Under the pieces are notes generated by a model that saw only the letters and a list, made by a program, of their open reading frames with translations, was not told the DNA's origin and did no database searches. A DNA stretch of 64,000 nucleotides from the IMG/VR virus record IMGVR_UViG_3300042301_002363, positions 24,098 to 88,097 of that record, one strand, 5' to 3'. A program made the position numbers and the translations under genes. Origin of the DNA: a virus. Below, in pieces: positions 23,593-44,349 of this stretch; within the stretch, counting starts at the first letter, position 1; each line of letters begins with the position of its first letter.

Positions 23593-26500
23593 TTTCTGAT
23601 AAATTTACTTAATTTTTTTATACTACCACCATATCTATTATTAGTAGTTTGCTGTTCTTCACCATTGTTCATCATTGTACCAGCAGCTCCTCCAACACCA
23701 ATTGTAATTGCAACTTGAGGTAAAATTTGAATCAATGATTTTTTAGTCTCATATGTTGCTTCTGGTTTAAAATGTTTATTCAGATTACCAAAGCCACTAT
23801 CTAAATAATATTGATAAAGTTCATCATCTCCTATCCTTTCCATTTCTTTGATTTGCTTTATAGCATCATCCATATTGATATTTTTTTCTTTCATTATTTG
23901 ATTTGCAAAATTAAATCTAGCCTTTTGCAACTCTGAATGAAGTTCTCCTGGACTACTTAACCATGATTGATAATCATAATCTTTTTCCACTGTTCCATCT
24001 GCTTTTGTTACTTCTTTAGCAGGTAAAGGATTTAGCATTGCTTCATTATATGTCTCAGCTAATATGTTATCTGAATGACCAGTATAATATCCAGCATCTT
24101 GATCATATTTCTGAATAAGATTTATCCAACTATCATACATAGGTTGTATATCATGACCAATCTCATGAGCATTAACTCCTGCAACTTGATAAAGAGAAGT
24201 TGGACTTTGATAACTTCTATCTATTAGTCTAGCTGTTCCATCAGAAGTTGGATCAACATAACTATATGTACCTTCAGGTTCTATCCAATTGTATTTTGGT
24301 TTAAACCATGGGTTAAATGTATTATTTTTCCAAGTCAATGGGTTTGTAATTTGAAATGGATTTGTTTGTTCATAATAACCAGGTTTTGTCACATTAAACT
24401 TTTGTTTAGGTTTTGCTAAAAAATAAGATTGTACAGGTTTAGATGCAAGTGTTATTGTGCTATTGCCAGTTCTAACTCCACCTAAAGTTGGATAATTTTT
24501 TAACAAGTAGTCTTGGTCATCAAATGATAAATTTGAGAAATTTTTTGCTGTAGGATCAACATCTACAAGTGTTGTCCTTTTAGCATCAAATAATGGATTC
24601 CACATACTTACTTTTGTACCACCAAGATCTATTGGCGGTGTACCTATCATTTCTCTATTAAAACCATGCATATATTGAGGCATAGGTCTACCAGCTAATG
24701 TGTGCAATTCACCAATTTTACCTCTAAAATCTGGATCCATGTTGGCTTCCATTTCATCATACAACTTGAAACTATCATCATATAATTGTTGTTCTTGTTG
24801 TGCTAATTTTAAACCACGGTTATATGCTAACTTTACAGTTGGATCTTCTTGTGATATCGCTTTATCAAAATAACCACTTGAATGCATTTCTTGTTTGAGC
24901 GCATCAAGATCGTCATATTTTTGAGTAAGAGCAGTGGCATCATTTCCTGCAAATCTACCAAATGCCTCACTTGGTTTTAAGAATGGTTTATTATAAGTTC
25001 TAAATGTATCCAACGCTGTATAAAGATCTTTTATTTCAGTATCACCTAATCCTTTTACATCTCTTAAATAATTATCAAGTATAGATCTTTCTGCATATAT
25101 ATTCCAATTATAATATTTATTTTGTTTAAGTGATACAAGATCATTATGATTGGTCGTTAACTTAGTACTTAAATCTTCATATTTTAAAGGATCTTTAAAC
25201 ATCCATTTTTGTGAGAAGTCTGTGGCTTGATCAAATACTCTTTGTTGAGCTTGTTCAACTGTTTCTCCAGGAAGAAAACCTTCTTCCCCAAAAGTGTTTA
25301 GTTTTCCTAAGCGTTGTTGATCTTGAATTAAATTTGGATATCTTTTTAAATATGCATCATACTCATCTTTGCCAGATAATCTAGTAAATTCATACTTGTC
25401 ATAATCTTTAGTAGGATCTAATGAAAGAGGTGGATTTTGAGAACTATTGATTCCATTTGTGTTTTGCAAATTAAAACCTTGCTTCAAGCTAGGAACAGAA
25501 AGTTGTGACTGCAAACCATTTGAAAGTTGCAATGCTTGGTTTGAAAATGCTGGCAAACTTGTAGTACCACTTCCTAGAAATTTGGTAAGTGGAGTTTGAT
25601 TTGCAAGTTGCATTGCTTGTGACTCTCCTAATTGAGGAGCTGTTTGTCTTAAAAATTTATATTCTCCAAGATTATTTGCACCTGTAAATCTATTCAACCT
25701 GCTTGTAAATCCAGGAAACATTTCTGTAGTATTAGCCAGATTAGTGTTACCTGCTAATAAATTTGAACCTGATGGAGTTTTAGCAAGAAGACTATATGAG
25801 CCTGGTGTTTTCAATATTGCATTTGCGCCTGGTGTTCTTAAAGCATTAAGTGCTCTGTATGAACCAACTAATGGTTTAACTGCAGGCAAAAGACCAAGAG
25901 CTGAAAAAGCTGTGTTTTTCCATGCTTCATCTGTATCGCCTTTTTGAAATGCGTCATATGCTTGTTCAGCAAATCCTTGTGGTTTTAATGTTTCATATGC
26001 TCCATATGCTCCTAATGCATTACCTACTGTCAATCCTGGTAATGTTGAGAATGGTGCGTATGCCATGGCTGAACTTAATGCTCCTACAGTAAAAGGAGCT
26101 GCAGCAATCACACCTGGTGCATAGAATAATGGATGTTTATAAAACTCTTCCATATTATCACCAAGCATTGCTTTGTTATATTTATCTGCTTCTTCTTGTG
26201 TCATGTATACTGTTTGTCCAGCCATTTCATCTGGAGTTACAGTTTTTGTACGAAGTTCGCCAGTCATTGGATCAACTCCTCCAGTTGGTACTTGAAATGA
26301 GTATTGATAGAACTGTCCAGAAGGATTACCAAAAGCATCCTTTTTATTTGGATCAGTGACAAACATTTTATTTGGTCTCCAAGAATCTTCACTTGCTATT
26401 TGTACAGCAACTCTTCCATCTTTCCATCTTTTTTCTGCTTCTCCTAACGTAGGAGAATATTTTTGACCAAATGCTTGTGGAGTCAAAGATGTGTAATCTT

Positions 26501-28034: not shown

Positions 28035-30380
28035 TTAAAAAAACTTACGCAATTTTCCTATATTTCCTCCATATTTAGCCATCTGTATATCAGATCCTGA
28101 TACATCATTTTTACCTTCTCCAGAACTAGCAAGAAGGTTAAACAGATTTGCCAAAGATTTGTTATCCTTAGAAAGTCTATACAACCTGTAAATATCATCA
28201 ATATAGTTAGGATTATTTCTATCTGTATATCCTTTTTGTACAGCTTCTTCCATCATTTGTTTAACTCTTTCTTCTGTAATAACATCTGTTGGTTGAAGGT
28301 TAAATAATTGTCTTGCTACATTTATGTTTGAATGAATATTATCTTCTTTTGGTGTAGTTGAATAATAATAGTCTTCCTCCATTTGTGCTATGGTTTCATC
28401 ATCTTTTGGATTAATCTTTCCTTCTTTGATTCCTCTATCAATGATATCATCAAATGACATTAAGTTATCCTCAATAGTTCCTGAATAAAACTGTTGATAC
28501 TTTTTGTTCTCAAAGAATGGTTCATTTAGATACGTAGTCCATTCATGATCTAATGTTGCAGCATAATCAAGAGGTTTACCTAACTCATCCTTTCTTACAT
28601 AAATCTGTGCTGGATTTCCATCAGCAGCTTTCACATATTGACCTACAGCACTAGGATCACCAAGCTCATCTTTATATACAATTGGTGGAAGTTCTGAACC
28701 TCCTTCATTTGGAACAAATTGATTTTGCATTTGTGGAATCACAGTATTCATAAGATCAACATGTTTCTGTACTTCATTTGGATATTTTGGATCAGTAATC
28801 GCTTTAAGGTATTCAGGATCAGTAAGAATTTCTGGACGTTTTTGATACCAGTTTTTCATATATGTTTCTGTATCCATTGGATTAGGAAGTTCAACTCCCA
28901 TTGGTACGCATGTTTGATGCACATCACTCCATTCATGATTTTCTGGACAATCACCTGGACCCATCATTCCACCCATTGCTTTTCTACGCAACTTACGTTC
29001 TTGCTCTATCATCTCGCGCGTAGGCTTTCTACCAGAACCTTTGTTAGCTCTTATGTTATCCCAAAGACCTCTTTGTGAATATGACCCATCAGCACGTTTA
29101 ATCATCTCACCACCTTTTCTGTAATTGCCATTCATAAATGCAGGAGACACTTCTTTGTAGTGTTCTGCAAAGTATCTAGCATCTGCTGGATTATCAAACT
29201 GCATTGCTTCATTTGAAGACGCATCGTAATCACCTAGCATCAACTGACCATTTTGGTTTTGTATTTGTGGTACAGCGTAATTGTCCATACTTGCCATATA
29301 ATGTGTACCAACTTGACCATTATCAAACATATATGGATTATCAACAGGTGCTACCATTCTTTGAGCTGCTGGATTACCAAATTCATTTGCATAAGCTAAT
29401 CTTGATTTCATCATTGCATTGGTAGAGTCTTGCAAGTGTTGTGGTAATGGCACATCATATTGGCCTTCATATTCTTTATAGTCTTTTACAACTTGTCCTT
29501 GTGGTGTATTTTCTCTCCAATTTCTGTACTCATTCAAAGTATCCTGCATTAATTGGTAATCAGTTAATGTCCAACTTGCTGGATTTCCTATTTCTGCTTC
29601 AACACTTTTTATATATTGTTTCCATTCTTCAGGAGAATTTGGCACACCCATTCCTAGTTCACCACCTGTTTCCCAGGTAGCTTTTGCGTATGCTCTAAAG
29701 TATGGGTTCTTTTTAAGATTGCCTGCATGTCTTGCGTAAAAAGCATCTTTACCATTCTTTGATTTGCTACGTTCACCCATATTTGGATCGCCAAAATATT
29801 TTTTAGTACCATCAGGTCCAGTTACAACATGCGTTTTTCCTTTACGATCATTAGATTTTCTTACAGTGTATCCACCTTTACCATATTGTGGCATATCAAA
29901 ATCACCACCATACTGCATGTTGTTAAGAATTTTATTCTGAACATATTCTGGTAAAGCATTAAAACCTGGATTGTTGATTGTACCTCCTTCTTCTTTAGCA
30001 AAGTTTCTGGCAAAGTTTGCTTTCTTTATCATTGCTGACGAATAGTTATCTTTATTTGCCAATATATGTGCAGCTGCTTCTTGTATGCCCATACCCATGC
30101 GCGTAGCTTGAGCTTTGAATGTTCCTTTTTTAGCAGGATCTAGATGTATACCACCACGCTTTGCTTGTTGATATGCTTGCTCCATGCTCATCTCTTCTTG
30201 AGGAGGCATTTGTTGTTGCATACCTGGTACAAATTGACCAAGTTCTTGAGCTTGATTCTGCATCAATGCTTGTTTCAGTTGATCTTTTAGAGACTTTTCT
30301 TGTTGCACTTGAGCTTGTCTTTTACCAAAGTTGGCTAACACATCAGCTATTGTGAACTTGTTAGGGTTACTTGAATTCAT
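28035..30380 (-). CDS. Virion protein with packaging-like basic domains and degenerate HE motif, 781 aa
   Basis: ATG overlaps the stop of the hub gene (TAATG). Two patterns recur in unrelated large-virus and phage virion proteins: HLDPAKKGTFKAQATRMGMG followed by a YSSAMIKKANFARNFAK helix (residues about 76-130), and GKTHVVTGPDGTKKYFGDPN followed by a basic AFYARHAGNLKKNPYFRAY segment (about 180-235). A Cys pair lies in CPENHEWSDVHQTC (about 483). Near residue 613, LDHEWTTYLNEP resembles a zincin helix but lacks the second His. The C-terminus is AKYGGNIGKLRKFF. The role in the virion is inferred from position and from these shared patterns; the biochemical function is unknown. Confidence 0.75.
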   Translation of the reverse strand: MNSSNPNKFTIADVLANFGKRQAQVQQEKSLKDQLKQALMQNQAQELGQFVPGMQQQMPPQEEMSMEQAYQQAKRGGIHLDPAKKGTFKAQATRMGMGIQEAAAHILANKDNYSSAMIKKANFARNFAKEEGGTINNPGFNALPEYVQNKILNNMQYGGDFDMPQYGKGGYTVRKSNDRKGKTHVVTGPDGTKKYFGDPNMGERSKSKNGKDAFYARHAGNLKKNPYFRAYAKATWETGGELGMGVPNSPEEWKQYIKSVEAEIGNPASWTLTDYQLMQDTLNEYRNWRENTPQGQVVKDYKEYEGQYDVPLPQHLQDSTNAMMKSRLAYANEFGNPAAQRMVAPVDNPYMFDNGQVGTHYMASMDNYAVPQIQNQNGQLMLGDYDASSNEAMQFDNPADARYFAEHYKEVSPAFMNGNYRKGGEMIKRADGSYSQRGLWDNIRANKGSGRKPTREMIEQERKLRRKAMGGMMGPGDCPENHEWSDVHQTCVPMGVELPNPMDTETYMKNWYQKRPEILTDPEYLKAITDPKYPNEVQKHVDLMNTVIPQMQNQFVPNEGGSELPPIVYKDELGDPSAVGQYVKAADGNPAQIYVRKDELGKPLDYAATLDHEWTTYLNEPFFENKKYQQFYSGTIEDNLMSFDDIIDRGIKEGKINPKDDETIAQMEEDYYYSTTPKEDNIHSNINVARQLFNLQPTDVITEERVKQMMEEAVQKGYTDRNNPNYIDDIYRLYRLSKDNKSLANLFNLLASSGEGKNDVSGSDIQMAKYGGNIGKLRKFF

Positions 30381-33300
30381 TATCTTGGACTATTTAAATT
30401 TTTAACGTTTGTAAGTTTAAGGATCATTTTGTTATCACCACTTATGTTCCTTCTTAAAATTACTCTATTACCATAATGTCTGAACTTTTTATGTTCAAGT
30501 GGTGATTTGTTGTAATCCACATAATCAGGATTGATATACTTTTTACAACCTGCACATTCAGTAATCCACATTGGAAGTTTTGTGCCAGAAAACTCTCCTC
30601 TGTCATTAGTAATATCCCAGAATGTATTGAATCTATACTTGTTCTCTTCTTTAGAGAAAAGTATTTCAATATAATCAGCACCTATTACAGGATTTGCTAA
30701 TATGTCAAGAGGATTGCTTTTTTGCTTAATCCTCATTCTGAGAACACCTGATATCTGTTCTGAATTATAAATGATAGCTCTATCAAAGTTTTCATCTAAA
30801 ACATGGAAGTAATCCTTACCATCATTGTAAAACTTATACACATCAAGATAGTATTCAAAACTTCTGAGAGTTGTAATCTGATTTGGTGTTACAATTGGGT
30901 ATTCAATTTCCCAAGGGTAATTTGTACCATAGTAATTACAAAAACTATCCCATCTATTGTTATGCTTCCATATCTGATTGTTGTTGATTGTATAAAAGTT
31001 TTGATATGATGGCATCATTAGTGATGGCAACCAGTCATGGAAGCTAATCCACATTTTTGATTTTGGATCATAACTTACTGTCCAATTACAAGGTTCAAAA
31101 CATAATGGATCATCAAATGCACATGGACATCTTTGAACAATTGCGTTTAATGTTATATGTATTTCGCATAACTTTTGATCTCCGCTTGCATTTTCCACAA
31201 GTATATTGTAGGTTGTATTACCTGCTGGTGTTACTGTAAGGCTGCCATTTAATGGTATTGGTCCAATGCCATTATTCATTACAACTGAAACAGCATTTAT
31301 AGTAGACCATGTCAATGTAACTGATTGGCCATAATCTACATTTATTGCTGATGCTCCAAGTTGACAATCAGGACAAGGATTGCCTGGTAATACTTCTGTT
31401 ATTTGACAAAGTGGTATTTCACAAGATCCTTCAATCTGAGTACTTCCATCAGGACATGTATATTGACCAGACGAATTTGGTACTGGAATTTCTTGACCAA
31501 TAAAATCTCTTGTTGAAAATATGATAAATGGTTCTAAGTCTGCTGGAGTTGGTCCACAATTGGTAGGAGCTGTTGTAAATGGAGTCAGCAATGTGCTTGC
31601 TTGCAACTGTGCTAAAGTCATATCATATACTTCTCCTGCAAATGCAGCATCAAGGTCATGATTTCTTCCACACAATCTTATTGTTCTTGTACCTGCAGGA
31701 AGAGTTACAGGAAATACATGCCAGTGATTAAAAGGTCTCATTACGCCACTATCCTCACCACCAGCTGAATCACGTGCAGATAAGTATACCCATAAGTTAC
31801 CATCAACATATATCTTTACTTCATTGTCACCTGCAATCCCAACTAAATATTGTTTTGTTTGAGGAACATCAAAACAAAAAGAATAACACACGTCAACATC
31901 TTCAGGAAGTGTACCACCAGCTGGCCATACACCTGCAATATTCAATCTTCCTCTTGTTGCTCCTCCACATGCACCACCATCTGAGTTCCATAAACCATTT
32001 TGAACATTTACCAAAGGAGTAACAGGAGCACCAATACCATTCATTCCTCTTACTTGGTATGTACTTTGACTTCCAACTCCTTTTAATGGTTTTATTTCAG
32101 TTGTAATATCTGGATATAATCTAATACCAAATTTATTGTAAGCTGCTACGTTTTGAGCTGCCTCAACTGTAAATGTTGGTCCTGTATATTCAGCAGGAGC
32201 TGTAGATGTTATTACACATTCACCATTAATAATTTCTGCTTCAGGAGGACATCCTTTACATTCTGGAATTACTGGTGGATCATAAGGAATATCTGATGGT
32301 ATTATCTCACCACATATATAATATGGTACACCATTTGGATCATCAAATAATAAATCATCTCTCAATGGTCTATAATCCTTTTTTGAGAAATAGAGTAACT
32401 CATATGTTGAGTCATAAATAGCTTGTACTCCAATTCCTGCTACAGGATTATCATATAATGGATAGTTTGGATATACATCAAGCATCTTTGATGGCAAGTT
32501 ATCAGCAAACCAAAACTTTAATCCAGTTCTTGATATTTCCTCTAAACCAGAACCATTAGACACAAAGATTTTACCAATGTCTTGAGATACAAAGAATAAA
32601 CCATAAGGTGTGTTTATTGCAGCTCTTGATGAGATTGAAGCCCCATAAGAAAGCGCATCATCTGCGTTAACAAGACTCTGAAAGTTTTGTTGAAATAAAC
32701 CACTATCACCAATTGATACTTTTGTTCCAGCTGTAGTTTGTAATTGATCCTGACCTACAAACGTTGTTGGTTCAGCATCCTCAAACAAAATAATACAACC
32801 TGTTGCATTCAATGGTTTTATGATGTTTATTTTACCATAGAAATCTTTGTAGTTAAGTGGTAGATAATTTCTCCAGTTGTCTCTTCTAAGTCCTGACCTT
32901 TGTTGTAATGAGTACACACTTCTTCGTGGGTAGTATTCAAAACATGATGAATACAGTTGTGGGTCATAGTCACGTGGTAAGATTTGTCCCCAGTTTGCGA
33001 GGTTGTTAAATAACTTGGAACTACTAAGTGATAAGTCATATTTGTAATATGTTGGTTTAGTAATAATATCAGATCTAAACATTGTACTAATGTCATTGAA
33101 AGAAAAGCCATATACATCATAAAACTTTTGGAAATCCTCAAGTCCATAGTCTCTATATGCCATGTTTAATTCTGACTCTGTAAAGTAATCGCGTACACCA
33201 TTGTAAAATAAATAAAACCAGTTGTTTCTTCTTACCAATCTTAGAGTAGAACCATCACCTGGTGCATCTAATCTATAATTATCTGAAGGTGTGGTTGCAT

Positions 33301-36223
33301 CCCATTGTGGTAAAATTTCACTAGGAAAGTTCCAAGAAAATGTCAAATCAAAATCTGATGAATCAAAGTTTGCATAGTTTGCCCAGTACCTTGGCGCAGG
33401 TCCATTTACATAATTTCTGTAATCCCATTCAGTACCATCTAATTCACCTAGCATCCATGTGTTAAAAAAGTAGTATGGATTCTTTTCTGTATATCTGTTG
33501 ATATATACATCCCCACCAAAAATGGCAGAGGTAGAATATGTTAATCCTACTGCTGGTGTTGTTTCGTATACACAAGAATCTGTTGGTATTTGCACAATCC
33601 CATATAATTGACCATACTGATTTTGATAGTCAACTTTAATTGCGCCATAGTACTGACAAATATTAGATATAAATTCACCATATGGATCCTTATATGTAAT
33701 TCCATTTACAACACCATCTAAGTCTCTAACTCTTTTTTTAGAGTTATCTGATGATGATGGATTTGGTAAATCTTTTGTCAACTTTAAACATAAAAATTTA
33801 GTTCTGTTTAGGTTGTTGATTCTATAAGTATTATCAAAATCCTGTACATGCATTCCAATGTACTTGATCATATTATTCTGTATCTTTCTTCTATAGCATT
33901 TTGGATATGCAGCAGGAACACTTGAATTGTTTACGTTTGTATAATTTGAATAGAAACCATGACTATTGTACTGAAGAGCATAATCTCTATAGTTAGCCAT
34001 ATTACGTATCAAATCTAATACAACGCTCATTCCTTTTGGAACCCAGAAACTTAATTGTAGAATTAACTGTACAATACCTGCAATAGTACCAAGCAAGTTA
34101 CCTTGACCACCTGCAGAAATTGCTGACAAAATACCACCACTAATTAAATCTGCAATTGTTGTCGCTGGAGCTGATTCACGTGTTGCGTCTGCGTATATAC
34201 CACCACTACCCACAGCTAATGGAAAGTTACCACCCTTAATTGTGGATTTTCCTACAGCTTCAATAAGTGCAATACCTACTCCAACACCTAACGCTAATGT
34301 AAATGCGTTATCAGTAAGCAGCTTGAATCTTGGATGTTTATATGGTAATTGATAGTTACCTGTTGAAATTCCTTTTTCCTCAGTGTAGATCTTTATGTAA
34401 TTTGTTCCAAATGCTGGTCTTTCAAAATGAATCTCAGGAGAATGGAATGCAAGATAATTCTTTTTGTACTTGTTAAGTTTTGAAGCATCTTCCCAATTTT
34501 CCTCATTTTCATTGTTATCTAAGATTGTGTAATCATCAGATAAGAATGGATCAGGTCTTAAGTCATTATAAGGATAGTTTTCAAATAAACCTTTTCTATT
34601 ACCAATAGAACCATTTACATTGAACTCAACCATATTAGAGAACAATCCTTTTGTAATAATAGACTTGTTGTTCTCTCTTGAACCTCTTAGTATTTCATAT
34701 CCAACAATATCAGGAATTGGATTGCCATTTGCATCAACAGGTGGTTCTATATTAGAGAATTCAACACCAAGTACTATAATTCTACTACCACCTTGATTAT
34801 GAATATGCGTGGTCTCATTAGATGGCATTTTGTGATGACGTATAGGTTCATAACACAGATCACCCCATACTTCAGGATTAGTTGGATATCTTTCTGTTGA
34901 TTCCCAATATGCCATATTTCCTCTTGCTACTACAATACCTCCATCCTTTTCTGTTCCAGATGAAGGAGCATACGTAGATGTATCATAAACTTGCCATGCT
35001 TCTATTTCAGTTGGATCCACCACATCGTTGGTTGTAATATTTACCAAATCAGATGGTATTGCAGCTCTTCCTGGTATATGATATGATGCTGTTCTATTAC
35101 CTGTATTGTATATCCATCTGATAAAGAATGAATATACTTCATCACGCATGTAACCAACAATATTACCACCATTCCAATAATAATTAACATCATACTCAAC
35201 AGCTACCCAGTTGGTAAGTATTTTATTTGCTTGAAGTTGGTAGTTAATATATGGTTGTGTGCTAACGCCACTTCTGATAAGATATCCATTTACTGCAGCC
35301 ATTTTTTCACTGCGTTCATATACAACATTTCTAAGTGGTATATAAGAAAGTGGAACAGTTTCTAAACTACCTTGTATAATATCAAGTACTACTGTCTTTT
35401 GATTAATATTGTAGTATCCTATCTTTTTTGCAATTGCTTGTTGTGTGACAACAGAGATAATAACAAGTTCATACTCATTATATTCCTCATCAAGATCAGT
35501 AAGATCTATTTGGATACTTCCACCTTGCCCACTATCTTGCCATAATCCTTGTGGCACACTTGGCATTGAATATTCAGTAAGGCGTATGCCATCTTCTGAA
35601 TATGCAATTACTGCCATATAACTTCCATTATTTAACTGTCCAGCACCTAGCGCTTTTCTAATAGATACACATGGTTGTTGGATTAAAGGATGCAAACGAA
35701 TTTTGTCACAATCAAGTCTATCTGTGCATATCTCACCATCACATGGATTTTCACTTACTGGCTCACATATGTAAGGAACATTGTTAATGTTCATTGTTCT
35801 ATCAGGATTTAGATTATCCTGCCAGTATCCTGAAAAAGTACAGTCATAGTTTTCTTTAACAAATGCTGTTATAAGATGAGTAGTCTTAAAGTTTAAGCAG
35901 TCATCATTTATGACTGTTGTATAACTACACTTAGACTCATCAAATATTCCAATTTCTGAACCAATATTATTTGTTGAAAATATCAACCATTCAGTCTCTC
36001 TAATAAAAGCATATCCAATAATTGTATAAGGTGCTTCAGTGCAATATCTATTTGATGGCTCATTGCCTATAGAACCAGATTCTCCATAGTGAGAATTATT
36101 TATTGCATTAATAGCATTGTACCAAAGACCATCTGACATATAAATGTCAGTATTGTCTTTATTCATTCCTTTATTAAAGGACTGAGTCTTTGCGCCAGAT
36201 GTATTTTGGATTCCTTCAGCCAT
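30380..36223 (-). CDS. crAss-like tail stabilisation / hub protein with inserted adhesin-like module, 1947 aa
   Basis: The N-terminus (SFNKGMNKDNTDIYMSDGLW) and the overall beta-rich, Trp/Tyr/Asn-rich composition match the stabilisation/tail-hub family that follows the ring proteins in crAss-like phages. A hydrophobic block lies at about 635-740. Residues about 1328-1700 look foreign to the core: a Cys mini-motif (CPPEAEIINGEC), a roughly 210-residue beta-sandwich-like domain shared with the fibre gene at 40681-42045, a second Cys mini-motif (CPDGSTQIEGSC), and an Ig-like domain (VDYGQSVTLTWSTINAV). Conserved core sequence resumes with YDPKSKMWISFHDWLPS (about 1714). The protein probably closes the tail barrel; the insertion is inferred to be surface-exposed and to bind host structures. 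Confidence 0.8.
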   Translation of the reverse strand: MAEGIQNTSGAKTQSFNKGMNKDNTDIYMSDGLWYNAINAINNSHYGESGSIGNEPSNRYCTEAPYTIIGYAFIRETEWLIFSTNNIGSEIGIFDESKCSYTTVINDDCLNFKTTHLITAFVKENYDCTFSGYWQDNLNPDRTMNINNVPYICEPVSENPCDGEICTDRLDCDKIRLHPLIQQPCVSIRKALGAGQLNNGSYMAVIAYSEDGIRLTEYSMPSVPQGLWQDSGQGGSIQIDLTDLDEEYNEYELVIISVVTQQAIAKKIGYYNINQKTVVLDIIQGSLETVPLSYIPLRNVVYERSEKMAAVNGYLIRSGVSTQPYINYQLQANKILTNWVAVEYDVNYYWNGGNIVGYMRDEVYSFFIRWIYNTGNRTASYHIPGRAAIPSDLVNITTNDVVDPTEIEAWQVYDTSTYAPSSGTEKDGGIVVARGNMAYWESTERYPTNPEVWGDLCYEPIRHHKMPSNETTHIHNQGGSRIIVLGVEFSNIEPPVDANGNPIPDIVGYEILRGSRENNKSIITKGLFSNMVEFNVNGSIGNRKGLFENYPYNDLRPDPFLSDDYTILDNNENEENWEDASKLNKYKKNYLAFHSPEIHFERPAFGTNYIKIYTEEKGISTGNYQLPYKHPRFKLLTDNAFTLALGVGVGIALIEAVGKSTIKGGNFPLAVGSGGIYADATRESAPATTIADLISGGILSAISAGGQGNLLGTIAGIVQLILQLSFWVPKGMSVVLDLIRNMANYRDYALQYNSHGFYSNYTNVNNSSVPAAYPKCYRRKIQNNMIKYIGMHVQDFDNTYRINNLNRTKFLCLKLTKDLPNPSSSDNSKKRVRDLDGVVNGITYKDPYGEFISNICQYYGAIKVDYQNQYGQLYGIVQIPTDSCVYETTPAVGLTYSTSAIFGGDVYINRYTEKNPYYFFNTWMLGELDGTEWDYRNYVNGPAPRYWANYANFDSSDFDLTFSWNFPSEILPQWDATTPSDNYRLDAPGDGSTLRLVRRNNWFYLFYNGVRDYFTESELNMAYRDYGLEDFQKFYDVYGFSFNDISTMFRSDIITKPTYYKYDLSLSSSKLFNNLANWGQILPRDYDPQLYSSCFEYYPRRSVYSLQQRSGLRRDNWRNYLPLNYKDFYGKINIIKPLNATGCIILFEDAEPTTFVGQDQLQTTAGTKVSIGDSGLFQQNFQSLVNADDALSYGASISSRAAINTPYGLFFVSQDIGKIFVSNGSGLEEISRTGLKFWFADNLPSKMLDVYPNYPLYDNPVAGIGVQAIYDSTYELLYFSKKDYRPLRDDLLFDDPNGVPYYICGEIIPSDIPYDPPVIPECKGCPPEAEIINGECVITSTAPAEYTGPTFTVEAAQNVAAYNKFGIRLYPDITTEIKPLKGVGSQSTYQVRGMNGIGAPVTPLVNVQNGLWNSDGGACGGATRGRLNIAGVWPAGGTLPEDVDVCYSFCFDVPQTKQYLVGIAGDNEVKIYVDGNLWVYLSARDSAGGEDSGVMRPFNHWHVFPVTLPAGTRTIRLCGRNHDLDAAFAGEVYDMTLAQLQASTLLTPFTTAPTNCGPTPADLEPFIIFSTRDFIGQEIPVPNSSGQYTCPDGSTQIEGSCEIPLCQITEVLPGNPCPDCQLGASAINVDYGQSVTLTWSTINAVSVVMNNGIGPIPLNGSLTVTPAGNTTYNILVENASGDQKLCEIHITLNAIVQRCPCAFDDPLCFEPCNWTVSYDPKSKMWISFHDWLPSLMMPSYQNFYTINNNQIWKHNNRWDSFCNYYGTNYPWEIEYPIVTPNQITTLRSFEYYLDVYKFYNDGKDYFHVLDENFDRAIIYNSEQISGVLRMRIKQKSNPLDILANPVIGADYIEILFSKEENKYRFNTFWDITNDRGEFSGTKLPMWITECAGCKKYINPDYVDYNKSPLEHKKFRHYGNRVILRRNISGDNKMILKLTNVKNLNSPR

Positions 36224-36228
36224 TGCTT

Positions 36229-37398
36229 TTAAGTATAATATGGATGATAAGGCATGTGATTCTTGAACATGTCATAGTACTTGTGATACTGTGCTCTTTT
36301 ATTTGTCTCCCAAACTTGTTTCATCTCACCAAAGTCAGGAGTATTAATAAATCCTAATGCTTTGTTTCGTGCTTCACGCAATTTGCCAGACATAAGTTGC
36401 ATCAACTGCACTGTGTTCTCACCTGCCTGAGCAAGATTTTCATAGATTCTTTCTTTCAATGCGTACTCATAATACTCATCTGCATATGGATGACTTAGTA
36501 CCATAAGTTCTCCTTTGTCAGTTTCCATTACACTTTCATACATGACAAGGACTTCACCTTCTTTAAAGTTTGTTTCTAAGAATCCATTCTTTAAGAATAC
36601 ATTGTAATAGTTGCGAGAATTTACATCAACACAATCTGCAGAAACTGAATTGTTTTTTACAATGCCAAGTCTAAATAAATTTTTAAACTTTCTAGTTCTA
36701 CCATTACATCTATCTACAACAATAGGACAACCTCCTTCTGATGTAAGAGATGTTTCATGACATGGATTAGGGTCAACTATACAAGGGTTAGGTGGAATAG
36801 GACATGGGTCTGGAGGACATGTTGCATCACATGACGATTTAGAACCCATTATTGTAACTACAACTCCACTGTAAGTCGTGGTATAATTGGAAACCAACTG
36901 TATTGTATCTTGATCAATAACAATAATCTCCAAGTTTAATAAAGTATGATTTGCAGCAAGTGCTTGTACAATCACATAATTAGTTCCTAAGTTATGTGTA
37001 ACTGTATTTATGCCTGGTGCAATTGTCAATACTTGAGTACATTGCTCTACCATATTTCTATAGATTTCAAATTCTGCTTGATATATACCATCTGCTACAC
37101 CTTGTTGATATGTTTTATAAGACCAAAGTGGTGGAGTTTCTGTTTCAATGGAACCTGTGCATAATAACGCATGATTCAATACAGCAAAGTCAGATGGTAA
37201 TTTTGCACGATAGTTTGATACTTCTAACATTTTTGTGCGATTTGGATTTATCTTTAATCCTAAATCATAATTTACACGCTGAACAACTTTGATAAGTGTT
37301 TGATCATCTATCATTCCTTCAAGATCATACGTTCTTATATCAATCTTGACACTGTCAAGAAGCTCATCAAATGTTCTATATTTAAGTTCTGCTTTCAT
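36229..37398 (-). CDS. Tail ring / P22 gp4-like connector protein, 389 aa
   Basis: MKAELKYRTFDELLDSVKID with a following helical domain, and a C-terminal helical region (HPYADEYYEYALKERIYEN), match the tail ring or tail-tubular protein that sits directly before the stabilisation gene in crAss-like phages. Such proteins stack under the portal. The centre (residues about 190-235) holds a Cys/Pro-rich insert (CDATCPPDPCPIPPNPC) unusual for a connector and similar in style to this phage's fibre N-termini. It starts 3 nt below the stop of the neighbouring ring protein and ends 5 nt before the hub gene's start, consistent with one translation unit. Confidence 0.75.
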   Translation of the reverse strand: MKAELKYRTFDELLDSVKIDIRTYDLEGMIDDQTLIKVVQRVNYDLGLKINPNRTKMLEVSNYRAKLPSDFAVLNHALLCTGSIETETPPLWSYKTYQQGVADGIYQAEFEIYRNMVEQCTQVLTIAPGINTVTHNLGTNYVIVQALAANHTLLNLEIIVIDQDTIQLVSNYTTTYSGVVVTIMGSKSSCDATCPPDPCPIPPNPCIVDPNPCHETSLTSEGGCPIVVDRCNGRTRKFKNLFRLGIVKNNSVSADCVDVNSRNYYNVFLKNGFLETNFKEGEVLVMYESVMETDKGELMVLSHPYADEYYEYALKERIYENLAQAGENTVQLMQLMSGKLREARNKALGFINTPDFGEMKQVWETNKRAQYHKYYDMFKNHMPYHPYYT

Positions 37399-38758: not shown

Positions 38759-40648
38759 TTAACTGCCTATTATTTTTACAAATGCAGGTTTGCTATCTGC
38801 AGCACCAGATATGGATATAATATCAAGAGATCCTGCACTTGTATTATACACATAATCAATGCCATTGGCTAATACCAGATATGGAAATGCTCCATTTTTT
38901 GGCACATATATGGTAATTGATGCAAATGCACCAAATCCATGTGTTATTGTAATTAGACCATTTAGTGGGGCTAACGTAACACTGAAAACATTTGCGTCTA
39001 ATCCATCTATTGTAACATCTGTAGCTGTTGATGATAACGTAATTCCTGTTCCTGCTTTTAATCCTTTTGTTGCCAAACTAGGACCATTTCCATCATTTAC
39101 TAATGATTCATGCGCTGTTGTACCAGCATCTGCTAAAACAACACCTGATCCAGAATCAGCATTTATAATTGTTATCTCGTCTGTTGCAGAATCTGTTGTT
39201 ATAGAAATACCTGCACCTGCCACAAACGTCAAAGTATCATTGTTACTATCTGCTACTACTGTAGGCTGTGTCGCAACTGCAATATTTTTAAAAATAAATT
39301 GCGATGACCCAAGATCACTGTTTGTAATTGTGAGTTCATCAGTTGCTGGATTTGTTGTAACCGCAATACCTGTTCCAGACACAACTGTCAAAGTATCGTT
39401 ATTAGTATCTGCTACAATAGTTGGTTGTGTTGCTACTGCAACATTTTTAAATATATTCTGAGCTGAACCTGGATCAGTATTAGTCACAGTGTAAGTTGTT
39501 TGAGCACCTACTACATTAGGATTAACTTGAATCCCTGCTCCAGCTGCAACTACAAAGGTTTGAGTACTTGTTGGAATAAAATCTAAGAAATTTTCAAATG
39601 CTATTTTTACTTGCTGACAACCATCCACATACGTAATTGTAAACGTTGAACTATTATTTGGATAACACCATGCACCTGTTGTAGCAGCTATCCATGGAGC
39701 ATCAAAAATAATATTTGAAATTGGTGCAGCGTTATTATATTTTGTATCAATTAAATCAGAGTTCAACCATACTAAATTTCCAATAACCTCAGCATTGTAA
39801 AGATTACCATCATTGTCTTTATATGCGTTTGATATAAAGTCTCCATCTGTTTCATTACAGTCAATTGGTCTTACCAATCTTACTTTGTATCCAAATCTAT
39901 ACGAACCAGGATTATATGGTGAAATTGTATCTGATAAATAATCAACTCCATAAGCATACGCAGTAGCAGTATTATCGTTACCTGACCAATACACAGTACC
40001 TTGCCCATTATTTGTAGCAAAAAATCCTGTTGATCCATTTCTGACAACAGTTGGAGAAACACCTAATCCTGAACTATTAGTTGCACCACTATTTGGTAAT
40101 GACCAACATGTAGTTGATTTTATTTTTCCTCCTGCGTGATTTAACCAAGGAGTTTGTGTAGCAGCAGGATCTAGCGCTAATGCTAATGCGTACCAGTCAT
40201 TATTATTTGGAACTCGCCAAGTATTTATCTGATTATCTAGAGGATTGATATTAACAATACCACCAGCAGTTCTTCCATCACCAGCAGTTCCTACGTTTAA
40301 TGTGTACCAGTTATAAAGTTTTCCTACATGCGCGCACGTAGCAGTAGAATCAGTACATAATACAATGTAGTCAGGATTATCTATTTCTATTACTGCAGGA
40401 ATTGAACAACATGCTCCAAGACATATGTAATCCACAATTGCTTCCAATGCTTCTACAAGAGATGAGTTTGTTGGAATTATAGGAGAATCCTTGCATGTTA
40501 TTGCAGGTCCTGTATATACAACGCATTGTGCATTGATTATTTCAGTACATGGTTGTGGATCTAGACATACTGGAGGTGGTGTAATACATGGTTCAGGTAT
40601 TGCTGGTCCACATCCACATCCTTGACAGTTATTATTATAAGTTCCCAT
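38759..40648 (-). CDS. Fibre/decoration protein with FISUMP-like (C-type-lectin-like) domain and tandem repeats, 629 aa
   Basis: The N-terminus is Cys/Pro-rich (NNCQGCGCGPAIPEPC) and shares CVVYTGPAITC with the anchors of the two fibres upstream. Residues about 108-262 match the C-terminal half of the FISUMP family: GKLYNWYTLNV, WRVPNNNDWYALALAL, TVYWSGNDN and RFGYKVRLVRP. Residues about 270-335 match the N-terminal half of the same family (DNDGNLYNAEVIGNLVWLNS, WIAATTGAWCYPNN), so the order appears permuted. Residues about 345-500 carry two to three copies of a 53-residue repeat (FKNIAVATQPTVVADSNNDT), typical of trimeric fibre shafts; a small beta-rich C-terminus follows. I infer a surface fibre that binds host glycans or proteins. 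Confidence 0.7.
   Translation of the reverse strand: MGTYNNNCQGCGCGPAIPEPCITPPPVCLDPQPCTEIINAQCVVYTGPAITCKDSPIIPTNSSLVEALEAIVDYICLGACCSIPAVIEIDNPDYIVLCTDSTATCAHVGKLYNWYTLNVGTAGDGRTAGGIVNINPLDNQINTWRVPNNNDWYALALALDPAATQTPWLNHAGGKIKSTTCWSLPNSGATNSSGLGVSPTVVRNGSTGFFATNNGQGTVYWSGNDNTATAYAYGVDYLSDTISPYNPGSYRFGYKVRLVRPIDCNETDGDFISNAYKDNDGNLYNAEVIGNLVWLNSDLIDTKYNNAAPISNIIFDAPWIAATTGAWCYPNNSSTFTITYVDGCQQVKIAFENFLDFIPTSTQTFVVAAGAGIQVNPNVVGAQTTYTVTNTDPGSAQNIFKNVAVATQPTIVADTNNDTLTVVSGTGIAVTTNPATDELTITNSDLGSSQFIFKNIAVATQPTVVADSNNDTLTFVAGAGISITTDSATDEITIINADSGSGVVLADAGTTAHESLVNDGNGPSLATKGLKAGTGITLSSTATDVTIDGLDANVFSVTLAPLNGLITITHGFGAFASITIYVPKNGAFPYLVLANGIDYVYNTSAGSLDIISISGAADSKPAFVKIIGS
39170..39470 (-). 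repeat. Tandem 159-nt coding repeat in fibre shaft
   Basis: Two well-preserved copies, offset by 159 nt (53 codons), encode FKN(I/V)AVATQPT(V/I)VAD and the following TNPATDELTI / TDSATDEITI segments. A weaker third unit lies upstream in the protein. The DNA copies differ at many third positions, so the duplication is not recent. Repeats of this type build trimeric beta-structured fibre shafts. Confidence 0.65.
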
Positions 40649-40680: not shown

Positions 40681-42045
40681 TTACACTTCAGTATATGTTA
40701 CATCCATAGTCAGATTATCACATGGACATCCAAGTTCTGAAAGCACCTCTGGTCTTACTACTAGTTTTACTCGCATGTCCCCATTATCAGTATAGTCCCC
40801 CCAACTTTGGTTTGCATTTAAATCATCTACTAATTCTGTAATATTAACAGGTAATCCCATAGGTCCTGAAGGTACATAGTATCCTATCTGTATTTCATTA
40901 CAATAAAAAGTTACTAAATTAACAGGATAAAATGCTATATAATTTGAATATACTATACAAGCTTCAGGTAAAATTCCATTACAAGGTACTATTTCATGCA
41001 ATATGCATGATGGTACTCCCAGACATCCATCTAATGTATATCCATCAGGACAAGTCCATGTTATAGTTTCACCAGGTGCACCTATCACCAATGGTGGTGT
41101 AGACACTAAACTTGCTGATGAAAATAAAATATATGGTTCTAGGTCAGCAACTGTCATTGTTGGATCTGCCATTAGCGTCATTAAATCAGCTTCACTGATA
41201 TCATATATTTCTGCACCAAATGATGCAGGTGTTCCAAAATCCATTCCTGACAACTGCAATGTATGCAAACCAGCAGGTAAAGTAATTGGAAACATATGCC
41301 AAATCTTAAATGAATTTGGTTTACCAGAACTTGTTGGACTTCCTGTTGGACTATTAGATCCCCATATGTTTACAAGATTAAAGTTTGTGACACCACCATT
41401 AAAGGTTGTTGATGTTATTCCTGCTTTAATTTGATTATCACCAGCAATGGCAAAAATGTAAGTTTTTGTAGTGCTTATGTCAATGCAAAACTCAACGTCT
41501 AACCATTGATTGGCAGGATATCCTGTAGCCCATATTCCAACTGCATTTAATCTTCCATCAACATTATTTGCTGCTGCGTTTGTAAATACAGTATTACCTA
41601 TTACTGATGTAGATTGTATTGTGATTAATGATCCTGTTCCAGAATTCTCAAAAACTTGATAACCATTTGCACAGGTTGTACATATTGTGTCATTTTGCCA
41701 TCCATTTAATGGGAATATTTTTGTGCTAATATCTTCATATAACCTTGCACCAAAATTTCCATAGGCTGCACTATCACCTCCTCCAACAATGTTGTATATA
41801 GTTGCACCATCATCAGGTGTTGCTGCAATTACATCATATCTTTCACATTTTCTGATTATAGGATTATATATAAATCCTTCTGGACATTCACAGCAAATAA
41901 TTTCACACCAGTTTGCACCATCCCAATATTTAGTTGTACAGTTCCATGGATCAATCTCTTTCCATTGTGCAAGTGTTTTAACACGAACACTGCAGTTGCA
42001 GACATCAACCCAGTTTATACCATCAAATATCTTATACTTGTTCAT
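40681..42045 (-). CDS. Cys-rich fibre/adhesin protein sharing a domain with the hub protein, 454 aa
   Basis: The ATG at 42045 is 2 nt after the previous stop; a TTG ten codons upstream would overlap that gene. The N-terminus has two related units, KIFDGINWVDVCNC and KYWDGANWCEIICC, then the mini-motif CPEGFIYNPIIRKC. Residues about 85-315 are a beta-sandwich-like domain (NFGARLYEDISTKI, IAGDNQIKAG, HMFPITLPAGLHTLQLSG) that is clearly homologous to residues about 1364-1575 of the hub protein. CPDGYTLDGC follows, then a C-terminal beta domain with VPCNGILPEAC. It lies in the fibre cluster. I infer a surface adhesin or decoration; the domain resembles PA14/lectin-type folds only in general pattern. 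Confidence 0.7.
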   Translation of the reverse strand: MNKYKIFDGINWVDVCNCSVRVKTLAQWKEIDPWNCTTKYWDGANWCEIICCECPEGFIYNPIIRKCERYDVIAATPDDGATIYNIVGGGDSAAYGNFGARLYEDISTKIFPLNGWQNDTICTTCANGYQVFENSGTGSLITIQSTSVIGNTVFTNAAANNVDGRLNAVGIWATGYPANQWLDVEFCIDISTTKTYIFAIAGDNQIKAGITSTTFNGGVTNFNLVNIWGSNSPTGSPTSSGKPNSFKIWHMFPITLPAGLHTLQLSGMDFGTPASFGAEIYDISEADLMTLMADPTMTVADLEPYILFSSASLVSTPPLVIGAPGETITWTCPDGYTLDGCLGVPSCILHEIVPCNGILPEACIVYSNYIAFYPVNLVTFYCNEIQIGYYVPSGPMGLPVNITELVDDLNANQSWGDYTDNGDMRVKLVVRPEVLSELGCPCDNLTMDVTYTEV

Positions 42046-42047
42046 AG

Positions 42048-42749
42048 TTACAGTGGTGTGCAAGGCTGAATCCAAAGATCACCTGGTCTTATTGTGTTAT
42101 TAACTCCAATATAATTTACTCCAAATCCTTCAATAGAACCATAGATGCTATCAAAATCAGATTGTGTTGGTTCAATTGTTTGTACAAAAACAGCAACTCC
42201 TCTACCTGACTTACCCTCAGCTCCTGAATTTCCAGGTAAACCTTGTATTCCTGGAGGGCCAATTGGTCCAGGAGTACCAGTAGCTCCAGTAGCCCCAGGT
42301 GTACCAGCACATCCATTACATGCAAAACTAGTACTTATAAGAGTATCAGATATGCCATCAAAATAATCTATTTGAACACCACCACATGGACAATGTCTAC
42401 TTCCTGAAAGTACTGTAGATACCTTTATATAATTACCATTTATACCTGCTGCTCCATTTGTACCTCTTACACCTGGAGGGCCAGGTAGTAATTGTATATT
42501 GCATATTTGGTCTATGACAAGTTGAAACAATTCTGAGAAATCAGTTGGTGGACATGAAATATCATTAAAACAAGAAATGTCATATCTGGTAGGATCAAGC
42601 ATTACTAACGTATCACAAAACTTAATAGCAAGTTTGTACAATACTTCAGTTATTGTATCACCATTACACAGTTTCAAACATGGAATATCTGGACCTTCCC
42701 AGATCACACAGTTTGAAGAAGTTTTTATACATCCATCTTTGCTTTTCAT
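42048..42749 (-). CDS. Collagen-like head/tail fibre, 233 aa
   Basis: The N-terminus (CVIWEGPDIPCLKLCNGDT) is the same anchor module as in the next fibre upstream. Collagen-type Gly-X-Y repeats occur at about residues 91-105 (LPGPPGVRGTNGAAG) and again at about 142-182 (GTPGATGATGTPGPIGPPG and onward), separated by a short Cys-containing segment with CPCGG and CNGC. A small globular C-terminus ends in DLWIQPCTPL. Gly-X-Y repeats in phage fibres form trimeric shafts. It starts 10 nt below the 529-residue fibre, and its stop is 2 nt before the next ATG. I infer a trimeric fibre attached to the capsid or tail through the Cys-rich anchor. Confidence 0.75.
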   Translation of the reverse strand: MKSKDGCIKTSSNCVIWEGPDIPCLKLCNGDTITEVLYKLAIKFCDTLVMLDPTRYDISCFNDISCPPTDFSELFQLVIDQICNIQLLPGPPGVRGTNGAAGINGNYIKVSTVLSGSRHCPCGGVQIDYFDGISDTLISTSFACNGCAGTPGATGATGTPGPIGPPGIQGLPGNSGAEGKSGRGVAVFVQTIEPTQSDFDSIYGSIEGFGVNYIGVNNTIRPGDLWIQPCTPL

Positions 42750-42759
42750 ATCTAATTTT

Positions 42760-44349
42760 TTAACATGTTCCTAAACTTGTTAATGTCGTATCTAACCCTA
42801 TTGTACTTGGTAAAGGAGCACCTCCTGCCAATTCTGCACTAACAAGACAAAGAACACTTCTTGTTGCATTTATACATCCTTCACCTGGGCAATAAATCAA
42901 CCCACTTGAGAAGAACATAGTAGTTCCAAAAGATTGACCATTTGGAATAGTTATTACAAGATCTGTTTCTACTACTGGATCTGAACTACAAGCGACATAC
43001 TCAATTCGTATTGTAACCTCTATTGCTGTTCCAGTATTTATTAACGCAGCTCCTAAGCTATCTAATAAATCAACTCTTAGTGTTGTTTGTGTAGGATTAA
43101 ATGGTGTAATCACTGGTCCTATTGGATTAGTACAATTTTGTGGTTTACCAACAACTGAAGTACTTCTATAGAATAATTTTCCAACATATGGTAAATCTAC
43201 TAATACACCAGTTGTTTCAACAGGACCAGATGTACCACAATCATAAATTGCAGAAACATTAATAACATATTCTACATCTGGATCAAGACCAGGACTTACA
43301 ATTGTATAACTCAATGGTGATGGTCCAACAGTAGTAGTTATTAATGGAACTCCTCCTCCTACATAGAATACTTCAATTTTGTAACCAACAGGTGGTTGTG
43401 ATCCAGTAGTCACTGGAGCAACCCATGTTATAGTTCCACCTGTAGTGCTTGTAGATGTTATTGCCACAGACACTGGTGGAATGGTTATACAAGGAATTGC
43501 AGGTGTTGTTGACATACAATCGTTTAGTTGACAAACAACCAACCAAAGATTTGTCATTGATTGCGCTGCTGTACTAGGATTAGTAATCCAACCTGCTATG
43601 TCACCATAAGTACCATCACCACATGGTAACGGTGTTGCTTCGTCAATACAAATTGTATTGAACATTTCTTGCCATTGTGTTAAAGTACCTAGTATTGATA
43701 AGTAACTACACAATGCTTGCTCCATGTTAGAGAATGCAGTTTCAATTGCTAATGTTTGTCCAGGAGCAGTTCCACTTAAACATTGAGTAGTAACATTAAT
43801 TATAGGTGGTACAGAACTACCTCCACCACCATTGTCAATGATATTCTGAATAATTTGTAATTGAGTATTTATTGAGTTTAGTACTGACTCAATACTTCCT
43901 ATGCTAAGGAGTATATCACAAATCTTTTGAGCAAGATACTCAACATACTCAACTATTGGCAATGCTGTAACAAGATCACCAGTTTCAGGATCAATGTATC
44001 GCAAACAACTTGGTAATTGAGCAATAATGATTGGAGTAGGTGGTACTGGTGGATCAACAGGTGGTAAACAAACTTGTGAGATTATTAACTGCAATGTTTC
44101 AAGTAATGTATCAGGTGGACATTGACCTGTTTCCAAAAGACACTCAAAATCAAGAGTAGATACATCTAGTATATTTTCAGTTATATCGCAAAGAACTTTT
44201 GCCATTTCGTAAATGACTATATCAATTGTATCTCCTCTACATAAATCTATGCATGGAATATCTGGTCCATCCCACGTTACGCAAGATGCAGAAACAGGCA
44301 TACAACCTGACTTTCTGTATTTATCAATATTTGATGGTAATGCTTTCAT
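42760..44349 (-). CDS. Fibre/decoration protein with fibronectin type III domain, 529 aa
   Basis: The N-terminus (about residues 10-60) holds the anchor CVTWDGPDIPCIDLCRGDT, followed by Cys- and Pro-rich segments (CPPDTLLETLQLIISQVCLP). A helical trimer-like region surrounds SVLNSINTQLQIIQNIIDNG. Residues about 285-385 fit a fibronectin III domain (TGGTITWVAPVTTG, PVGYKIEVFYVGG, LDPDVEYVINVSAIYDCG). The C-terminal 140 residues form another beta domain ending SLGTC. Such modular proteins decorate crAss-like capsids or tails. It follows the small Cys gene without overlap. Confidence 0.7.
   Translation of the reverse strand: MKALPSNIDKYRKSGCMPVSASCVTWDGPDIPCIDLCRGDTIDIVIYEMAKVLCDITENILDVSTLDFECLLETGQCPPDTLLETLQLIISQVCLPPVDPPVPPTPIIIAQLPSCLRYIDPETGDLVTALPIVEYVEYLAQKICDILLSIGSIESVLNSINTQLQIIQNIIDNGGGGSSVPPIINVTTQCLSGTAPGQTLAIETAFSNMEQALCSYLSILGTLTQWQEMFNTICIDEATPLPCGDGTYGDIAGWITNPSTAAQSMTNLWLVVCQLNDCMSTTPAIPCITIPPVSVAITSTSTTGGTITWVAPVTTGSQPPVGYKIEVFYVGGGVPLITTTVGPSPLSYTIVSPGLDPDVEYVINVSAIYDCGTSGPVETTGVLVDLPYVGKLFYRSTSVVGKPQNCTNPIGPVITPFNPTQTTLRVDLLDSLGAALINTGTAIEVTIRIEYVACSSDPVVETDLVITIPNGQSFGTTMFFSSGLIYCPGEGCINATRSVLCLVSAELAGGAPLPSTIGLDTTLTSLGTC

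Follow-up and report, generated by a model that had tools for sequence, protein, structure and literature searches.

An inserted PA14-like head in the muzzle of a crAss-like phage, a likely exchangeable receptor-binding module in a propeller loop

Here, we analysed a stretch of 64,000 nucleotides (the window; positions 24,098 to 88,097 of IMG/VR virus record IMGVR_UViG_3300042301_002363), in which the minus strand encodes a large tail-tip protein with a long insertion, a tail ring protein and a fibre-like protein. Homologues are designated below by L numbers. The features that bear on the insertion are as follows.

30380..36223 (-): muzzle (tail-tip gatekeeper, crAss001 gp44-like), 1947 aa; assigned from gene order, hhalign, Foldseek and the annotation of the csAssE-Sib homologue
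30383..31087 (-): conserved C-terminal propeller part of the muzzle, residues 1713-1947, which starts NWTVSYDPK at 1713 and holds site C
31088..31129 (-): Cys-rich hub segment CPCAFDDPLCFEPC, residues 1699-1712, outside the insert; shared with L027, whose site is empty
31130..32311 (-): insert at site B, residues 1305-1698, 394 aa; limits set by comparison with L027, which lacks it
31130..31405 (-): Ig-like domain, residues 1607-1698, the proposed stalk; AlphaFold2 pLDDT about 90, all beta, found alone in L057
31406..31462 (-): Cys mini-motif 2 (YTCPDGSTQIEGSCEIPLC), residues 1588-1606, brackets the head on its downstream side; read from the sequence and conserved in the head alignment
31463..32215 (-): PA14-like beta-sandwich head, residues 1337-1587; PF07691 in relatives, BFVD matches
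32216..32260 (-): Cys mini-motif 1 (CKGCPPEAEIINGEC), residues 1322-1336, brackets the head on its upstream side; CPxG...C
36229..37398 (-): tail ring protein 1, upstream neighbour of the muzzle; PF24228 (CrAss_Ring_1), 27.4 bits against a cut-off of 27
40681..42075 (-): 464-aa fibre-like protein; its PA14-like head, homologous to that of the muzzle, is flanked by the same Cys mini-motifs; phmmer E 6e-36

The fibre region of the window also encodes a 629-aa protein with a Fib_succ_major domain (38759-40648(-); PF09603, E 2.4e-15), a collagen-like fibre protein (42048-42749(-)) and a 529-aa protein with an FN3 domain (42760-44349(-); PF00041, E 1.9e-6).

The large ORF directly follows the ring protein 1 gene, as in the gp43-gp44 order of crAss001, and its homologue in csAssE-Sib carries the annotation 'Muzzle protein'. 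In hhalign comparisons, the muzzle alignment matched both the N-terminal part of gp44 (E 6e-5 over gp44 residues 5-395, probability 65%) and its propeller part (E 1e-5 over residues 1025-1310, 82%). The AlphaFold model of residues 1050-1947 matched 7qol_P, a chain of the solved crAss001 tail with a seven-bladed propeller, in Foldseek (E 1.9e-5, prob 1.00), with a low TM-score for a C-terminal fragment that contains only part of the propeller. Taken together, the gene order, the gp44 sequence matches and the 7QOL fold match therefore identify the protein as a muzzle of the crAss001 gp44 family. Sequence searches of the PDB with the insert and with the muzzle profile gave no significant match; the link to 7QOL rests on structure. 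The crAss001 muzzle is a hexameric gatekeeper that sits at the tail tip and holds the gate (PMC10172136, Bayfield 2023).

A first-pass annotation had read this protein as a tail hub interrupted at about residues 1328-1700 by an adhesin-like module. The insertion is real, but its limits, set against the empty site of an IMG/VR homologue (L027, 62% identical) that has only the short loop YYFCGTKTVPGGGGTQPGKCPCEYTDPRCFEPC between the same anchors, are residues 1305-1698, with a start about 23 residues earlier. Likewise, two Cys mini-motifs do lie in the insert (1322-1336 and 1588-1606), whereas the last Cys-rich string, CPCAFDDPLCFEPC, belongs to the hub, because L027, which lacks the insert, has a counterpart of it, CPCEYTDPRCFEPC; YDPKSKMWISFHDWLPS is at muzzle residue 1718. 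The CPxG...C bracket is common to L067, L108, the 464-aa fibre-like protein and inserts at a second site, site C.

In the structural model (mean pLDDT 76), the insert is mostly beta with few helices, the Ig-like part scoring near 90 and most of the head 60-90. Its Foldseek matches comprise GH2 enzymes, by way of their accessory domains of the sugar-binding beta-sandwich and Ig types, the PA14 proteins 3ac0 and Epa1 (4afa), the latter an adhesin, as well as CBM6 and CBM74, all with TM-scores that are low (0.1-0.25), partly because the model consists of several domains. The matches in BFVD are PA14-domain and virion structural proteins of cyanophages, the best (E 4e-11) being a PA14 protein. Of the Pfam families, PF07691 (PA14) was matched most often in a set of 44 heads (21 of them, best E 1.2e-4). 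The window head itself scores 12.4 bits against this family, far below the Pfam gathering cut-off of 24, and we therefore call it PA14-like: the viral match and the relatives argue for a PA14-type fold, but the TM-score is about 0.2. Residues 1607-1698 yield a confident all-beta model with Ig proteins among the structure matches, and no Pfam family was called there.

The position of the insert was compared in an alignment of 89 non-redundant muzzles, a sample that speaks only for the near neighbourhood of the window protein in the family (the 80 nearest among 554 confirmed relatives, together with those of a first scan). At least 90% of these proteins have a residue in each of 1440 columns, and insertions, counted when at least 60 aa above the median, occur at three places only: after residue 159 (5 muzzles), at residues 1302-1702 (25 muzzles; site B) and after residue 1748 (11 muzzles; site C, near position 30980). 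With the core almost gap-free and large insertions restricted to three places, the pattern goes beyond chance, and the earlier description of the segment as an insertion is borne out by the fact that most of the 89 lack it. The site B loop ranges from about 10 to over 450 residues. Site C is empty in the window phage and holds 140-552 aa in 11 of the 89 homologues. A more distant muzzle, L200, carries about 420 aa with a PA14-like head near residues 97-107, in an N-terminal loop, and those of phi4:1 (L202) and csAssE-Sib (L205) carry about 389 and 576 aa, respectively, near window residue 430, outside sites B and C. Judged by position, the latter two belong to the IG2/crass region, for which insertions were described in the crAss001 study (PMC10172136). 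Sites B and C align to about gp44 residues 1196-1201 and 1235, from which we infer that both are hairpin loops, of the sixth and the seventh blade, respectively; the blade count and the faces were read from strand order, and strand parity would place site C on the face opposite to that of site B. Since the published insertions sit in the crass and IG2 regions, these propeller loops are additional insertion places.

The content of the loops is varied. At site B, a PA14-like head followed by an Ig-like domain is found in the window phage, L044, L046 and L048, and a PA14-like head alone in L066, L034, L067, L098 and L108. Other relatives carry vWA with Ig-like (L045, 81% identical; L058; L047 with two Ig-like domains), FN3-like with vWA and Ig-like (L049, L050, L006), another vWA type with Ig-like (L053, L056), Ig-like alone (L057, 77% identical) or some 120 aa of unrelated sequence (L084, L086, L096), the FN3 and Ig assignments in inserts being read from sequence, without Pfam calls. 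Site C holds mostly vWA, in one case another domain (L111), and PA14-like heads in L148, L154 and L160. The vWA family (PF00092) exceeds the Pfam cut-off in L004-L007 (35-53 bits versus 23.8) and gives weaker matches in L053 and in site C inserts (L104, E 0.009); the metal-binding MIDAS motif D-x-[ST]-x-[ST] is kept in most vWA inserts, that of L045 among them, and absent in L062, L032 and L112. In L105, which is 87% identical to L104, the site C vWA is cleanly absent and the flanking stalk is kept.

A separate observation concerns L062/L008 and L032, in which the muzzle is split into two ORFs inside the site B segment, an arrangement shared by two separate contigs. Two or three tandem TAA codons are followed, a few codons on, by a new ATG in the same frame, and stop-codon recoding was rejected on this ground.

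When these states are mapped onto a tree of the core from which the insert columns were removed, head type at site B changed at least 11 times and the content of site C at least 5 times. Within the clade of the window phage, heads differ between phages whose cores are 77-89% identical to that of the window. Thus, what had been taken for one inserted module is a real insertion but is one of several alternative occupants of a site of exchange and no singular event.

Exchange extends to other genes. As the first-pass annotation had proposed, the muzzle head is homologous to a part of a fibre-like protein of the same phage, the 464-aa protein (phmmer E=6e-36, 31% identity over 288 aa), so that the two domains are not unrelated. 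In the head tree, muzzle heads fall in separate groups among the heads of other genes, and the AU test rejects a single muzzle clade (p=6e-48). The head of the window muzzle clusters with those of fibre-region proteins of about 1000 aa from other phages (for example, L132-L139; 44-52% identity), and the genes of some head proteins of this size lie upstream of a muzzle gene, at a distance of about 4-5 kb. The head of the 464-aa protein is only 35% identical to the window head and belongs to a different supported group; within-genome duplication from this gene was rejected by the head tree. The suggested movement of the head between virion proteins therefore stands, but its source was not the phage's own 464-aa protein. 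The fibre regions of L046 and L057 also encode a PA14-like head, which the L057 muzzle lacks. More generally, PA14-like heads recur at site C, in the N-terminal loop and in fibre-region genes. Exchange of heads between genes is well supported, and the nesting of muzzle heads within those of other genes hints at fibre to muzzle as the direction of transfer. From the vWA tree, which is weak, no movement between sites B and C can be demonstrated. In a fibre-region gene of L150 and L143, the PA14-like head is followed by a segment with the vWA-like motif INIWFDNSGSM, for which Pfam made no call.

The head also changes faster than the core. In comparisons of the window with L044, L046 and L048, dN is 0.19, 0.26 and 0.34 in the head and 0.04, 0.06 and 0.17 in the N-terminal core, that is, 2-5 times higher in the head at similar dS (0.78-1.4 in both, near saturation). 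Head dN/dS stays under 1 (about 0.2-0.33), which gives no direct sign of positive selection.

Cultured phages show different sequence at site B as well. The muzzle gp042 (2289 aa) of Cellulophaga phage phi4:1, which is grown on Cellulophaga baltica in the laboratory, was found by MS/MS in virions and has 312 aa at this site, and FpV4 (L203) and Fpv1 (L206), which infect Flavobacterium psychrophilum, have 308 and 140 unrelated residues, respectively. No vWA was called by Pfam in the FpV4 or phi4:1 inserts, a DRSGS motif in FpV4 being suggestive only. The muzzles of FpV4 and Fpv1 are 48% identical in amino acids, and the flanks are 85-98% identical in DNA, as if the whole muzzle gene had been replaced.

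crAss-like phages are very abundant, the basis of their host choice is largely unknown, and attention has been given to fibres and spikes. We consider it likely that the insert described here is an exchangeable adhesin or receptor-binding head, held on a short stalk in a loop of the muzzle propeller and exchanged by recombination. Judged from sequence and models, a receptor-binding role would fit the fold, the tail-tip location of the protein and the faster change of the head; from these, we infer surface display, ligand binding, an effect on host range and, possibly, a trigger function. Mounted on the beta-propeller loop of a muzzle that is hexameric as in crAss001, the head on its Ig-like stalk would be present in six copies per tail tip, the Ig-like domain and the Cys mini-motifs holding it away from the muzzle body. 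The probable ligand of the PA14-like head is a glycan or some other structure on the surface of the bacterial host, and binding would dock the tail tip to the host surface, as fold, place, module exchange and rate suggest; more speculatively, docking could help to trigger opening of the muzzle gate. Relatives would replace the head, by recombination, with vWA, FN3-like plus vWA or other modules, from a pool that would also serve fibre-region genes. The wider proposal, in which several fixed docking loops of the muzzle take heads from a shared pool, partly from fibre genes, and the gate is itself a receptor binder that determines host range, seems to us evenly balanced.

Many muzzles are without any insert, and the module is thus dispensable for infection in general. 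This would also be expected if the modules were passive decorations that provide stability, spacing or weak non-specific stickiness at a tolerant loop and play no role in host choice, a reading that accommodates, too, the acceptance of about 10 to over 450 residues and even of a split gene (L008/L062, L032) as well as the head dN/dS below 1. A tolerant loop should, however, gather more random sequence, whereas a few ligand-binding fold types are reused repeatedly (PA14-like, FN3-like, Ig-like and vWA with conserved MIDAS), the PA14-like one in fibre-region genes as well, so that we regard passive decoration as unlikely. A sensor role, in which the modules mainly open the gate after fibre binding and are not primary binders, appears less probable still: the muzzle does hold the gate (PMC10172136) and the insert is in the same propeller, but insert-free muzzles must open too, and sequence does not separate sensing from binding.

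The many Foldseek matches to glycoside hydrolases (GH2, GH3, GH31) could point to an enzyme module, a depolymerase or glycosidase that clears surface polysaccharide. Yet the 394 aa are mostly beta in the model and leave no room for catalytic barrels, the matches, as we read the fold, fit accessory domains, and Pfam finds no catalytic family in the insert; such a module is very improbable. Finally, the window comes from a metagenomic virus record, which raises the prospect of an assembly artefact or a chimeric contig. Against this, the frames are free of stops in dozens of contigs, the near relatives L002 and L003 have the same insert, and the cultured phi4:1, FpV4 and Fpv1 have different sequence at the same site, which reduces the chance of an artefact almost to nothing.

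An exchangeable receptor-binding head, hence, is the reading that we favour. Because relatives carry different modules or none at the same spot, crAss-like phages probably swap the parts that first touch the bacterial host. If this is true, the part that opens the virion also joins in host recognition, and changes at one loop could track host range. The idea of head swapping can be tested now, because cultured phages differ in sequence at site B.

Muzzle insertions are known in general, and the open-access literature contains, as far as we found, no prior report of vWA or PA14-like heads in muzzles, of fixed propeller-loop sites or of module traffic between muzzle and fibre genes. The window protein resembles crAss001 gp44 (PDB 7QOL) in its position after ring protein 1, in the similarity of the N-terminal and propeller parts and in the 7qol_P fold match, and the family is like gp44 and its relatives also in that insertions, previously reported in the crass and IG2 regions, are a source of muzzle length variation (PMC10172136). 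Unlike in gp44, however, which has only a few residues there, sites B and C are propeller loops that take inserts, and, unlike the reported insertions, these inserts are recognisable heads (PA14-like, vWA, FN3-like, Ig-like) swapped among relatives. The PA14-domain virion proteins of cyanophages likewise place a PA14-type beta-sandwich, often with FN3 or Ig, in a virion protein, but they are other structural or fibre proteins, whereas the head described here sits in a loop of the muzzle, the gatekeeper at the tail tip. In bacterial RTX adhesins, too, a ligand-binding module is inserted into a host domain, the ligand-binding domains emerging from split domains (PMC12077191); these are, however, bacterial surface proteins with a scaffold unrelated to the muzzle. 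The Ig-like and DGR-diversified lectin tail fibres of crAss-like phages also combine Ig-like spacers with a ligand-binding head on the tail (PMC12386605). In contrast to those fibres, the change observed here consists in the exchange of whole modules, and it takes place in the muzzle.
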